DNA from: Catellicoccus marimammalium M35/04/3
Lineage (GTDB): Bacteria; Bacillota; Bacilli; Lactobacillales; Catellicoccaceae
Direction of reading: 5' to 3'
DNA: 64,000 bases
NCBI RefSeq assembly: GCF_000313915.1
Contig: NZ_AMYT01000022.1
Coordinates: 1 to 64,000, forward strand
In this document: piece by piece, positions 13,774 through 18,546 of the stretch
How positions within the stretch are numbered: the stretch's first letter is position 1
Layout of the letters: every line of letters starts with the position of its first letter
The notes under the pieces: generated by a model
What the model was told of the DNA's origin: nothing
Databases searched by the model: none
What the model saw: the letters and a program-made list of their open reading frames with translations, nothing else
Made by a program: the position numbers and the translations under genes

Positions 13774-14283
13774 ATGGAAGAAAGAGAAAAAGAATATTGG
13801 ATGGAAAAAGCGCTAGAAGAAGCGCAGAAAGCTGCAGATAAAGCGGAAGTTCCGATTGGCGCTATTGTGGTAAAAGAAGGAGAAATTATTGGTCGAGGTC
13901 ATAATTTAAGAGAAACAAGTCATGATGCAACTACGCACGCAGAAATGTTAGCGATTCAAGAAGCTTGTAAAAATTTAGATAATTGGCGCTTGGAAGATTG
14001 TCAGTTATTTGTTACTTTAGAGCCTTGTCCGATGTGTAGTGGTGCGATTTTACAATCAAGGATTCCTGAAGTCTATTTTGGAGCCTATGATCCAAAAGGA
14101 GGGACTGCAGGTACCTTTTATCAATTATTACAAGATGACCGATTTAATCATTGTTGTGACATTGTTGAAGGACATATTTGTGAAGAGGCGTGTCAAAAAC
14201 AACTGCAAGATTTTTTCCGTGCTTTGCGAAAAAGAAAAAAAGAAGAAAAAAGAGCTAGGCAACAACAAAAAGATTTGTTATAA
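13774..14283 (+). CDS. tadA: tRNA-specific adenosine deaminase
   Basis: Deaminates A34 to inosine in the anticodon of tRNA-Arg(ACG), allowing it to read CGU, CGC and CGA. The start at 13774 follows GGAAGG and gives 169 aa, the family norm; a start at 13717 would add an unrelated N-terminus. Zinc ligands and catalytic residues are visible: H55-A-E57 (THAEMLAI) and C85-P-M-C88 (EPCPMCSGAIL). The C-terminus is highly basic. The stop codon overlaps the -10 of the SRP RNA gene; tadA next to ffs is a familiar order in Firmicutes. Confidence 0.95.
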   Translation: MEEREKEYWMEKALEEAQKAADKAEVPIGAIVVKEGEIIGRGHNLRETSHDATTHAEMLAIQEACKNLDNWRLEDCQLFVTLEPCPMCSGAILQSRIPEVYFGAYDPKGGTAGTFYQLLQDDRFNHCCDIVEGHICEEACQKQLQDFFRALRKRKKEEKRARQQQKDLL

Positions 14284-14284
14284 T
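14276..14284 (+). promoter_or_regulatory. Extended -10 promoter of the SRP RNA gene
   Basis: TGTTATAAT lies across the last codons and stop of tadA, 7 bases before the first base of the RNA. The -35 region is poor, so the TGn extension is probably important. Confidence 0.6.
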
Positions 14285-14290
14285 ATCGAT

Positions 14291-14369
14291 GGGCAATGTT
14301 CCGCTTATGAATTGTGTCAGGTCCGGAAGGAAGCAGCACTAAGTATGTCGGGGCATGTGCCCTTTTTTT
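14291..14369 (+). ncRNA. ffs: Signal recognition particle RNA, small 4.5S type
   Basis: The domain IV hallmark GTCAGGTCCGGAAGGAAGC with the following AGCACTAAG is intact (about 14317-14345). This is the Ffh binding site with its asymmetric loop and GGAA tetraloop. The ends GGGCAATG and CATGTGCCC pair to close the hairpin, and a run of seven T ends the transcript. It is the short, Alu-less form, as in other Lactobacillales. With Ffh and FtsY it targets nascent membrane proteins. Reading frames crossing it are not genes. Confidence 0.97.
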
Positions 14370-14400
14370 GTATCTAAAAGAGAAAGGAGTTTCGTTTACT

Positions 14401-17400
14401 GTGTTAAAACAAGAAGGGCTAACGATAGTACTAGCAGGAAAAAATCAAGAAACAAAGATTGACTCTGTTCTATCGCAATTACAAAGTCAAGATGTGATTA
14501 CAGAAATATTGTTGGTGGACTTACATTCAACGGATCGAAGTCAAGAAAAGATGAATGAATGGAAGGAAAAAGAAGAAAGAGTTGAGGTCCTTCTTTCTTC
14601 TGCAGACACAATAAATGCAGGTTGGAATCAAGGATTAGCACAAGCAAAAGGAAAATATGTTTGCTTTTTATCCTTTACTGATACGATTCCACAATATTTT
14701 CCTTTATGGATACAAGCAGAGATTGCGGAAAGTGAAATTACGCTAAGCGCAAAAGCAACAAAAAGAGATCAAAATTTAGAAGAACGCTTAGAACAGTTTA
14801 CGCAACTCTCTTTATCAACTCAAATTTATCGAAAAGAATTTTTAGATCGTTTTTCTTTTCGTTTTTTAAATAGTAAAGAAGCGAGCTGGTGTTTCCATTG
14901 GATTACTTTGTTAGCAGCAGATCGTATTTCTACTTGTCAAAGTAAAGCGAAAAAAGAAGCTTTTCCAGTACAAGAAATGAGATGGCTTTCTTCTTTCCAT
15001 CATATTTTAACGATTGCCAAAGTACGTCCAGAATGGCATGAGATTTTATTATCTTGGATTCAAGAGACATATTTTGTACAATTTTTTGAACAACTACCAA
15101 AAGATTTATCATTTGTAGAATACCAAAAATATAGAAAACAATGGATTTCTTGGTTTGAAAAAGAAGAAGCCACTCAGTTTTCTCATCCTTGGGCTCAATT
15201 ATTGTGGCAAGAGCTACAGCAGCCAAAGGAAGGCTATCTATTCTGGAAATACTATGTAACAAAAGAAATGCGTTATCAGCCCCAAGCTTTACCGCTTTAT
15301 TATCGTCAAAAATTAGATACAACTCTTTGGCCATTTTCTTTATTTTTAACGGCCAAAAAAGTAGAAGAAGGAATTTTATATCAAGGATTTATTGAAAATG
15401 ACCTAGGATTATCTGTAAAACAAGCGATTTTCCGTGTGTCTTTACAAAATGATAAAGAAGTTCTTTTTCCCACTAAAGTGAAGAGTCAAAAAGTAAAAGG
15501 TGGATGGCAAATTTCTTTTGTTTTACCAAAAACAGAAGAAATGAAGAGCCAAGATTGGAAATGGCAATGGAGTTTAGGTTATCATCCGTTGCGTCTACAA
15601 AATGAACAAAGCGTAGAGTTTCAAGATGGCCTATGGCAAACTTCCTCTTATGGTGGTCGTTGGGAAGTTCCTTTGACTGGAAAGAATATAAAAACAATAG
15701 CGAAAAAAGATCTTTTTGGGGCCACAAAAGAAGGAAAAATTCAACCGATAGAAAAAGGAAATGAGCATCAATGGACAGATGTATTTGCCTTTATTCAAGG
15801 AAAAGTACAGGCAGTTCATTTAGATGGTAATGGAGCTTGGGAAGATGATTGCCAACAATATGAATGGAAAAATCATCAAGGATATTTACATCTAGAAAAA
15901 ACAGTGAAAACAACCATTGTAGGTTCAAAAGGCGCGATGTATTTACCTGCTCAACGTAAAGGTTGGGTGTTATGGGATGAAAAAAATCATGTCTTGGAAC
16001 GTTATGCAAAAGCAGAAGAAATAACAAAAGAAAAATTGCAAGCACTAGCAGATGGATTGTATCAGCCTTATTATCTTTATGAGTGGCAAGGAGAATGGAT
16101 ACTTTCACCAATCCAACATGTCGGAAAACAAGAACAAACAGAGGAAATCACTTGGTTTTCAAACCGAATTGAAAAGGAAGAAAGACAAGTAAGAAGTGCT
16201 TTTCCTGCTTTACAATTTTTTATTGCTCAGAAAAAGAAATTAAAAAATCAAGTGCTTTTACAAGCCAAAAGAGATAGTGTTGGTCTAGCTCATCTTGTTT
16301 CTAGCTTAGAAGATGACGGATGGAAAGTACAAGTTGCTTTACCTAAAGGAGTTCGTGCTAGTTATCTTTCAAAAGATATCGTTGTGGGAACAAAATCTTA
16401 TATTCAAGCACTAGCACAAAGTAAATATTTGATTAGTGAGTGTACACTTCCTTCTTATTATCGCTTGAAAAAAGGACAAGTAACTGCTCAATGGATGAAT
16501 GCTCCATTAAGAACAAGAGGAAAAATTAAAGATCAAAAAGAAGAGAAGAAACAATTCAATCGAGCAAAACATTGGTTCGTAGAAAATCAAGCGCAAGGAG
16601 AGCAATGGAAAAAAGAAGTGGGCTATAATGGAGAAGTTCACGCAATCGGATTCCCTTGGGCAGAAGAAATGTATTATTCCACAAAGAAAAAGGAATGGAA
16701 ACAAAACTATGGACTAGATCCAAAGAAAAAAGTAATTGGACTATTATTAGATCAAGATACGTTAAGAAAAGTTCCTTATTCTAAAGACTATCAATACATT
16801 GTTTCTTTTGTAGAAGAAATTTCAGATAATCAATGGTCCGCTCATCAGTTTACGGTAGAAGAAATTGGTGTTTTATGTGATGTAATTTTTGCTAAAGAAG
16901 AAAGAGTTTTAGATACATTTTCTCTGCTAGCTAAACCGCTTTATTTAGTGAATCAAGAAGGAAATTATCCAAAGGTTGTACCCGGAGAAATTCCATCCAT
17001 TATTAAGAAGATGAACGTACAATATATCGTTCCAAGTAGAGAAGAGAAAAAGATTACACCAACCTATTTCACACAATGGGGAGAAAAATTAGCTACTTAT
17101 GCTGCTACTCCAAGAAATGAAAGCTATATTCAACCTTATCTTTCTCTTTGGGCACACAAAGGATATGAAATTTTGTTTACTCTTGTAGGAGTTTTACCAA
17201 AAACAAAAACAATCTGTTTTGAAAGCTTTTATGGAGAAAAAGCGACGGATAATCCAAAAGCATTATATGATTATATGATAAAGAATCATCCAGAATATCG
17301 TTGTATTTGGAATGTGAAAAAAGGTTATGAATCTGTCTTTAAAGAACAAAACTTGCCGTATGTCGTGAATAATAGCTTGTCTGCCCTTTGGGTACAAGCT

Positions 17401-18546
17401 CGAGCACAATATTGGGTATACAATACTCGTCTTGTTCCTTGGAAAAAGCCGCCTCGACATACGTATTTACTGCAAACTTGGCATGGTACTCCTTGGAAAA
17501 AATTAGGTTTGGATATTGAAAGTGTTCACTTAGCAGGAGTGAATACAAAAGAATATTACCAAGAGTTTTTACAAGATGTGCAAAAGTGGGATCGCTTAAT
17601 TGCTCCTAATGAATACGCTTTTGCTTGTTTCCAAAGTGCATTTGCTTTACCAGCTGAAAAAATCATGTTAACAGGATACCCAAGAATCCAAGCGCTTTTA
17701 GAAAAAGAAAAACAAGCAAAAGAAATCAAAGAACAATTAGGGATTCCAAAAGAGAAGAAGGTGGTTCTCTATGCTCCTACTTGGCGTGATAGTGAAAACC
17801 AAGGACAAGGAAATTATTCCTTTGCCTTTCCATTTTCAATTGAAAAGGTAAAAACTGCGTTAGGAGAAGAGGTTGTTCTTTTATTACGCCTGCATTATTT
17901 AATCCATCAAGACTTAGAAATTTCAGTGGATGGGGTTTATGATGTTAGCGAATATCCAGAAATTAATGATTTATATGTCATCAGTGATCTTTTGATTACC
18001 GATTATAGCTCAGTCTTTTTTGATTATAGTGTCTTACAAAAACCAATGCTCTTTTATGCTTATGATGAAGAACAATATGAGAAGGAGCGTGGAGCGTACT
18101 TTGCCTATCAAAAAGTACCTGGACCAATTGTCAAAACAGAAGATGATCTTATCCAAAAAACAAAAGAGTTATTAGAAGAAAAATCATTAAGTCGTTGGAA
18201 TCAACAAAAAATGTTACCTTATATCCATTTAGAAGATGGGAAAGAAAATGAACGAGTGACAGAACAATTGTTTGCTCCAGTGATTGGAGTTTGGGAAGAA
18301 GATGAAAATTTCTTAACTCAAAAAGCGATTTGTCAAGGACGAGGAAGCGCGATGAGTACTCTGAAAGAAGGCGAAAAAGAATTTGCTTTAGTTCCAGGAG
18401 AAGAAGTAATTGTTCATCGCCGTTGGAACTATATCGATCCAATAACGCAACGTCCTGTAGGTTGGCCACAATACTATATTGAAACTACACAAGGGAAAGG
18501 TTACGTCCATGGATATCAACTATGGGGATTCCAACCTAATCCATAA
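14401..18546 (+). CDS. Giant CDP-glycerol glycerophosphotransferase (TagF-like) with N-terminal GT2-like and second TagF-like module
   Basis: A 1381-residue cytoplasmic/peripheral membrane protein, probably polymerising or modifying a glycerol-phosphate teichoic acid. The start is the GTG at 14401 after AAAGGAG; a longer frame runs into the SRP RNA. Order: a GT2-like fold at residues 5-110 (LTIVLAGKNQ, ILLVDLHSTDRS, AGWNQGLAQAKGKYVCFL); a central part of unclear fold; a degenerate TagF-like module at about 640-850, where QWMNAPLRTRG replaces the catalytic WHGTP; an intact TagF module at about 930-1290 (QTWHGTPWKKLG with H1028, YAPTWRD, ITDYSSVFFDY near 1200); and an SH3-like tail at about 1310-1381. 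Family TagF proteins are usually much shorter. It stands alone and has a strong terminator. Confidence 0.82.
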   Translation: MLKQEGLTIVLAGKNQETKIDSVLSQLQSQDVITEILLVDLHSTDRSQEKMNEWKEKEERVEVLLSSADTINAGWNQGLAQAKGKYVCFLSFTDTIPQYFPLWIQAEIAESEITLSAKATKRDQNLEERLEQFTQLSLSTQIYRKEFLDRFSFRFLNSKEASWCFHWITLLAADRISTCQSKAKKEAFPVQEMRWLSSFHHILTIAKVRPEWHEILLSWIQETYFVQFFEQLPKDLSFVEYQKYRKQWISWFEKEEATQFSHPWAQLLWQELQQPKEGYLFWKYYVTKEMRYQPQALPLYYRQKLDTTLWPFSLFLTAKKVEEGILYQGFIENDLGLSVKQAIFRVSLQNDKEVLFPTKVKSQKVKGGWQISFVLPKTEEMKSQDWKWQWSLGYHPLRLQNEQSVEFQDGLWQTSSYGGRWEVPLTGKNIKTIAKKDLFGATKEGKIQPIEKGNEHQWTDVFAFIQGKVQAVHLDGNGAWEDDCQQYEWKNHQGYLHLEKTVKTTIVGSKGAMYLPAQRKGWVLWDEKNHVLERYAKAEEITKEKLQALADGLYQPYYLYEWQGEWILSPIQHVGKQEQTEEITWFSNRIEKEERQVRSAFPALQFFIAQKKKLKNQVLLQAKRDSVGLAHLVSSLEDDGWKVQVALPKGVRASYLSKDIVVGTKSYIQALAQSKYLISECTLPSYYRLKKGQVTAQWMNAPLRTRGKIKDQKEEKKQFNRAKHWFVENQAQGEQWKKEVGYNGEVHAIGFPWAEEMYYSTKKKEWKQNYGLDPKKKVIGLLLDQDTLRKVPYSKDYQYIVSFVEEISDNQWSAHQFTVEEIGVLCDVIFAKEERVLDTFSLLAKPLYLVNQEGNYPKVVPGEIPSIIKKMNVQYIVPSREEKKITPTYFTQWGEKLATYAATPRNESYIQPYLSLWAHKGYEILFTLVGVLPKTKTICFESFYGEKATDNPKALYDYMIKNHPEYRCIWNVKKGYESVFKEQNLPYVVNNSLSALWVQARAQYWVYNTRLVPWKKPPRHTYLLQTWHGTPWKKLGLDIESVHLAGVNTKEYYQEFLQDVQKWDRLIAPNEYAFACFQSAFALPAEKIMLTGYPRIQALLEKEKQAKEIKEQLGIPKEKKVVLYAPTWRDSENQGQGNYSFAFPFSIEKVKTALGEEVVLLLRLHYLIHQDLEISVDGVYDVSEYPEINDLYVISDLLITDYSSVFFDYSVLQKPMLFYAYDEEQYEKERGAYFAYQKVPGPIVKTEDDLIQKTKELLEEKSLSRWNQQKMLPYIHLEDGKENERVTEQLFAPVIGVWEEDENFLTQKAICQGRGSAMSTLKEGEKEFALVPGEEVIVHRRWNYIDPITQRPVGWPQYYIETTQGKGYVHGYQLWGFQPNP

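Follow-up and report, generated by a model that had tools for sequence, protein, structure and literature searches.

A gene at positions 14,401 to 18,546 of a 64,000-nucleotide stretch (the window) of Catellicoccus marimammalium M35/04/3, contig NZ_AMYT01000022.1, encodes a protein of 1381 residues that we read, with a probability of roughly 0.6, as a giant teichoic acid polymerase whose GT-A/TagF unit has been switched off and in which a glycerol-phosphate polymerase would work on an inactive scaffold. The protein is probably a diverged ortholog of a family of giant polymerases in which a GT2 glycosyltransferase module, a middle region (X), two TagF modules, and a tail follow one another. Two of its three catalytic sites look dead, because the DxD and ED residues of GT2 and the catalytic residues of the middle TagF module have been lost, and this combined loss recurs in a second lineage of the family. 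The bacterium is frequent in gull faeces, and its genome assembly comprises 1,284,694 bases in 23 contigs.

Architecture of the protein

A reading of the letters and open reading frames without database searches (the sequence-only reading) had described a 1381-residue frame with a GT2-like start, a TagF-like module bearing WMNAP, and an intact TagF module, and Pfam, profile, and alignment comparisons confirm this layout (Table 1). The GT2-like module matches PF00535 over residues 15-90 (E 1.9e-8) and scores 49.1 bits against a profile of relatives, compared with 4.3 for the best of 400 shuffled sequences; AlphaFold2 models residues 1-120 with a block predicted local distance difference test (pLDDT) of 60-88. 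At the DxD position, 32 of 35 giant relatives carry D-x-D-D and 3 carry FMDSRD, while the window protein has FLSFTD, and the downstream ED is EA in two alignments (a third comparison did not place the position). By these residues the GT2 module looks catalytically dead, a point that the sequence-only reading had overlooked. From residue 181 to 640 there is no significant relative; residues 181-300 were carried along in one GT2-led profile alignment, block pLDDT past residue 180 is 20-44 in a model of residues 1-640 made from a 4-row alignment, PDB sequences gave a single chance-level match to residues 281-649 (E 1.6), and PHROGs gave none to residues 100-649 or to the tail.

The middle TagF-like module is a PF04464 homolog by score and, by its residues, not a working member of the family. 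It reaches 30.7 bits when residues 601-930 are searched alone (E 2e-7) and 30.3 bits over residues 658-779 in the genome scan (curated cut-off 22.1 in both cases), and 36.1 bits with a custom TagF profile, against at best 4.4 in 200 shuffles. The module is alignable over residues 661-779, and, as the sequence-only reading had held, it lacks the catalytic residues: WMNAP, with methionine for the catalytic histidine, stands at the WHGTP site, the second histidine is gone, and AKEER replaces TDYSS. For its C-terminal half (residues 780-915), two profiles gave no match, and in Smith-Waterman comparison with the C-terminal halves of first modules 2 of 300 shuffles attained the mean score and 13 attained the best score. 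As judged by these comparisons, homology is beyond chance in the first half and marginal in the second. AlphaFold2 (34 rows) drew alternating helix and strand here, with a block pLDDT of 32-80 for residues 641-917 and 51-80 for residues 665-784, versus 76-97 in the active module. As to the GT-B fold proposed earlier for the central region, the first half of the module offers homology and an alpha/beta model of moderate confidence, and the second half offers little.

The last TagF module is intact. PF04464 covers residues 928-1291 in a search with the protein (whole-protein E 5.4e-112) and residues 927-1291 with 354.7 bits in the genome scan, the WHG histidine, the second histidine, and DYSS are all present, and WHGTP, GYPR, APTWR, LHY, and TDYSS are common to all eight aligned rows. 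According to PMC11666461 and PMC10299916, the histidine of WHGTP is catalytic and its proline lines the glycerol pocket. With this motif unbroken, the last module is likely to transfer glycerol phosphate. Against the TarF equivalog NF041712 the window protein scores 385.1 bits, below the threshold of 550. The C-terminal tail has no Pfam match and no PDB sequence match, and it resembles the tail of the Enterococcaceae giant at locus L168, with a Smith-Waterman score of 69 where the best of 500 shuffles reached 44.

Relatives and orthology

We found 35 other GT2-X-TagF-TagF proteins, 1443-1722 residues long, in Lactobacillaceae and one Enterococcaceae genome. A contig scan with the live module, taking the best 80 loci of at least 580 relatives, included three proteins of 1682-1722 residues that have a tail behind two TagF modules, their GT2 being recognized by Pfam in two and by blastp in the third. 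The genomes matched by a profile of the giants' middle region number 26 of 395 in the order, 47 of 397 in Lactobacillaceae, and 4 of 105 in Enterococcaceae, sets that overlap and tallies that also take in one-TagF and GT2-only matches. In the window protein, the parts follow the family order from GT2 through two TagF modules to the tail, the tail being recognized through L168. Its residues 671-1369 align by blastp in register with L168 residues 853-1620 (33%, 368 bits), spanning the dead module, the live module, and the tail, and its GT2 residues 2-179 match L168 with an E of 2e-9. In a FastTree tree of 198 rows, the live module groups with the nine second modules tried, with a support of 0.949; this tree left out L103 and L119, which repeat L162 and L161, as well as modules identical to one another, pieces shorter than 250 residues, and short or other modules below 250 bits. 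A later tree omits L207 (2254-6585), a 1443-residue giant whose second TagF module is incomplete at the end, possibly by truncation or assembly error. In the Enterococcaceae locus L236, the gene order is tarB-tarA-tarF-giant (names by blastp against the C. marimammalium genes), and the giant would there occupy the place expected of the wall teichoic acid polymerase.

No near relative of the window protein itself turned up in the collections searched, neither for residues 601-900 in viral contigs, nor for the whole protein in genome contigs, nor for residues 100-920 in plasmids. In the 395 genomes of the order, residues 100-920 gave 10 matches, namely the protein's own genome and nine weak TagF-like matches within query residues 537-681. 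Phage matches came from 12 records, and the 10 among the matches listed all fall within residues 905-1335.

Another family of tandem TagF proteins (L037, L060, L066, L075, L094, L120, and L124) has FLQHG in the first module and WHGTP in the second. These proteins were set aside as kin because their first module keeps its histidine and DYSS and because they have TarS_C1 in front and no GT2, as seen in the four of the seven scanned with Pfam. Two further proteins, L033 (4577-8773) and L034 (4800-8876), of 1398 and 1358 residues, carry TagF at both ends, the second with FLQHG.

Pattern of module loss

Counting the window protein there are 36 giants, of which 29 have all three catalytic sites intact. 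The catalytic residues of GT2 and of the first TagF module are missing together in four (the window protein, L165, L219, and L220), and no giant is missing only one of these two sets. L165, L219, and L220 belong to one Lactobacillaceae genus; in L219, the DxD of GT2 is gone and the ED pair is retained. On the tree, the doubly dead giants represent two changes, and forcing the window protein and the other dead clade into one group was rejected (approximately unbiased [AU] test, p 0.0014). Among 15 one-TagF proteins with a GT2-profile match, 12 are long GT2-X-TagF relatives (proteins of 744, 769, and 1669 residues were excluded), and all 12 keep both sites. The co-loss and these intact relatives form the pattern expected if GT2 and the first TagF module are one working unit.

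The second TagF module alone has been lost in two giants, L225 (1615-6612, minus strand) and L167 (2417-7417, minus strand), from two species of one genus, and L207 ends within it. In this reverse decay, GT2 and the first TagF module are intact, and the second lacks its catalytic histidine, reading TGNGSP in L225 and TGQGSP in L167. First modules carry LHGTF in 31 of the 35 relatives and second modules WHGTP in 33 (those of L222 and L223 are identical). In LHGTF, phenylalanine occupies the position of the pocket-lining proline (PMC10299916), which hints that the first TagF module of the giants may use another donor.

Dead modules can be compared between L165 and L220, whose dead first TagF modules share 94% identity (dS 1.1). 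For this pair, the ratio of nonsynonymous to synonymous substitution rates (dN/dS) is 0.03 for that module, 0.04 for the dead GT2 as well as for the middle region and tail, and 0.01 for the live TagF. Across 16 pairs of intact giants, dN of the two TagF modules agrees within a factor of about 3 and is mostly near equal (one pair, L222-L223, has no differences in either module and is uninformative), and between L167 and L225, dN is 0.59 in the dead second TagF versus 0.28 in the first. Dead modules of the sampled relatives are constrained, but less than live ones. Those of the other lineage look conserved and so may still be useful.

Features and genome context

Table 1. Features of the giant gene and its upstream flank (window coordinates)
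Feature	Position	Strand	Basis
Gene, 1381 codons plus stop, GTG start	14401..18546	+	Reading-frame translation; stop at 18544-18546
AAAGGAG, likely ribosome-binding site, 11 nucleotides 5' of GTG 14401	14383..14389	+	By eye
Signal recognition particle (SRP) RNA gene (Rfam RF00169), directly 5' of the giant gene	14285..14371	+	60.3 bits
Terminator-like hairpin forming the 3' end of the SRP RNA gene	14350-14363	+	
GT2-like (GT-A) module, residues 1-180	14401..14940	+	Pfam, relatives' profile, AlphaFold2
FLSFTD at the GT2 DxD site	14665..14682	+	Alignment with giant relatives
Residues 181-640	14941..16320	+	
Degenerate TagF module, residues 641-917	16321..17151	+	Pfam, TagF profile, alignment, AlphaFold2
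WMNAP at the WHGTP site, residues 698-702	16492..16506	+	Alignment
AKEER at the TDYSS site, residues 831-835	16891..16905	+	Alignment with L168
Intact TagF module, residues 918-1292	17152..18276	+	Pfam, alignments, tree, AlphaFold2, structure comparison
WHGTP, residues 1027-1031	17479..17493	+	Alignment
Second catalytic histidine, residue 1165, in RLHY	17893..17895	+	Alignment; role from PMC11666461
TDYSS, residues 1200-1204	17998..18012	+	Alignment
C-terminal tail, residues 1293-1381	18277..18543	+	Homologous to tail of L168 (Enterococcaceae)

The SRP RNA gene ends 29 bases before the start of the giant gene, and its promoter-like site (14256-14284) is the nearest one upstream; read-through from this stable RNA gene may drive expression of the giant gene. 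The adjacency to the SRP RNA gene is not conserved in any of the 10 relative loci compared.

Elsewhere, the genome has a wall teichoic acid locus with TagH, TarB-, TarA-, TagG-, and TarF-like genes, a UDP-N-acetylglucosamine epimerase, a glycerol-3-phosphate cytidylyltransferase, and GtaB (the labels TagH, TagG, and GtaB were assigned by eye). The cytidylyltransferase, by which the genome encodes CDP-glycerol synthesis, scores 207 bits against a cut-off of 165, and the TarA-, TarB-, and TarF-like genes fall below NCBIfam cut-offs, the 411-residue TarF-like protein reaching 414.8 bits against the NF041712 threshold of 550. Ribitol is activated by TarI, of the IspD family, and an IspD-family search of the genome did not find the CDP-ribitol route, since the only match was weak (35.4 bits, cut-off 27) and lies in a 461-residue frame that is presumably GlmU. 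Five proteins encoded in the genome carry PF04464. On contig C17, a TagF-GW-GT4 protein of 1199 residues (L032, 2788-6387) adjoins a TagF-like protein of 884 residues (118-2772) that has no WHG motif and has a GW-like stretch just below the cut-off.

Discussion

GT-A/TagF-like capsule polymerases add both sugar and polyol phosphate (PMC5974469), and in the intact giants GT2 and the first TagF module probably act likewise as one GT-A/TagF unit that alternates the two, with the second TagF module adding glycerol phosphate. In the window protein, GT2 and the first TagF module would be switched off, and most likely only the C-terminal TagF module is active, adding glycerol phosphate from CDP-glycerol to a primer that TarA, TarB, and possibly TarF provide. 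Both dead modules would be kept as a scaffold, as a part that holds the acceptor, or as a keeper of the enzyme's shape, and the tail, if it resembles the SH3b domain of Bcs3 in role, is another part that might hold the chain. More tentatively, the GT2 and TagF pair may have become a joint pseudoenzyme in two lineages and been selected as an acceptor scaffold for the TagF module that remains active, a mixed polymer of sugar and polyol phosphate giving way to plain glycerol-phosphate polymer while the machine itself is kept. No paper on pseudoenzymes in teichoic acid synthesis or on tandem TagF proteins turned up in a search that covered few subscription journals.

Several observations weigh against this reading, some of them bearing on the orthology. 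The branch of the window protein is long (2.39), and the better model gives only 79% for grouping it with second modules; residues 100-640 show no similarity above shuffles to the GT2-to-first-TagF region of the giants, whose middle-region profile does not recover the C. marimammalium genome; and the tail has no clear match among the other eight giant tails and is not recovered by a profile of nine. The long branch, the modest support, and the unlike middle region are also what would be seen if a TarF-like module had been newly fused to unrelated parts, yet the match to L168 stays in register through the dead module, live module, and tail, GT2 lies at the N terminus, and pairing with the genome's own 411-residue TarF-like protein was rejected (AU p 0.02), so that we regard such a fusion as highly improbable. 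The gene also lies outside the wall teichoic acid locus, where the 411-residue TarF-like protein could be an alternative polymerase.

The scaffold proposed for the diverged giant faces difficulties of its own. Co-loss amounts to two events only, and the low dN/dS values come from a simple method (NG86) applied to one close pair with dS near 1. When L219 is added, dS is 1.8-2.6 or saturated, the dead-module ratios, where given, are 0.13-0.15, and the dead first TagF has a dN of 0.28-0.29, the live TagF one of 0.08; constraint in the L165/L219/L220 clade thus appears partly relaxed, because the dead module changes faster than the live one. This roughly 3.5-fold excess, together with the shortened and far-diverged dead module of the window protein (branch 4.0 in the 198-row tree) and the lack of a significant relative for residues 181-640, would suit a history in which the dead modules are relics and the upstream two thirds are tolerated so that the frame stays open for the last module. 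We consider this unlikely, since about 2.7 kilobases of catalytically dead coding sequence stay open in a genome of 1.3 megabases and purifying selection acts on the dead modules of the L165/L220 pair. The sequence-only reading had instead suggested that the degenerate TagF may be a domain that binds the growing chain or the acceptor and possibly serves as a built-in length ruler. A non-catalytic module has indeed been retained and in the window protein carries a net charge of +10 over 277 residues, which would fit a binding role; other dead copies, however, are acidic (-8 to -15), with no common sign of polyanion binding, also a point against an acceptor-holding scaffold. A retained non-catalytic role is plausible, with partial support from the constrained dead modules of the L165/L220 pair, and a binding domain is possible. 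Nothing in the data bears on length, and the polymer-binding part of Bcs3 was solved as an SH3b domain and not an inactive TagF (PMC10299916), which leaves the ruler unsupported and the length-setting domain very improbable. Since 29 of the 35 relatives have this layout with all three sites intact, a former enzyme is a better reading of the dead copy than a domain evolved for binding.

If the switched-off giant polymerase is as we propose, the giants present a natural separation of the activities within a multi-enzyme polymerase, and the wall polymers of species with intact giants, with GT2 and the first TagF dead, and with the second TagF dead would show what each module adds. Such a comparison would also bear on whether a dead transferase can act as an acceptor-holding scaffold, a question raised by the multi-enzyme capsule polymerases.

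Among known systems, the closest in layout are the giants themselves: L168/L236 (1630 residues) and L077 of Philodulcilactobacillus myokoensis (1690 residues) have the same order of parts, with GT2 at the start, a second TagF, and a tail, but most giants are 250-340 residues longer than the window protein, 29 of 35 keep all three sites, and the tail correspondence is clear with L168 only. In L165, L219, and L220, the same two modules are dead and the second TagF is intact, by a separate loss event, and there the dead modules are full length, alignable, and, in one pair, conserved. In the GT-A/TagF-like capsule polymerases (PMC5974469), as here, a GT-A domain precedes a TagF-like domain within one long protein; they are Gram-negative enzymes with both activities and a single TagF-like domain, whereas the window protein lacks a working DxD. 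In structure comparison, where all 50 matches listed fall on the live module, this module superposes on TagF of Staphylococcus epidermidis (3l7i) over 386 residues (root-mean-square deviation [rmsd] 3.5, Z 41.6, 35% identity) and on Cps3D (8qoy) over 358 (rmsd 2.7, Z 35.9), both of which have a single TagF-like module. Bcs3 of Haemophilus influenzae b (8a0m; PMC10299916) is, like the window protein, a TagF-like polymerase of several modules, and a small domain close to its end binds the polymer, but its partner enzymes differ, and the tail of the window protein, with strands modeled at a block pLDDT of 34-57, is at most a candidate SH3b domain.

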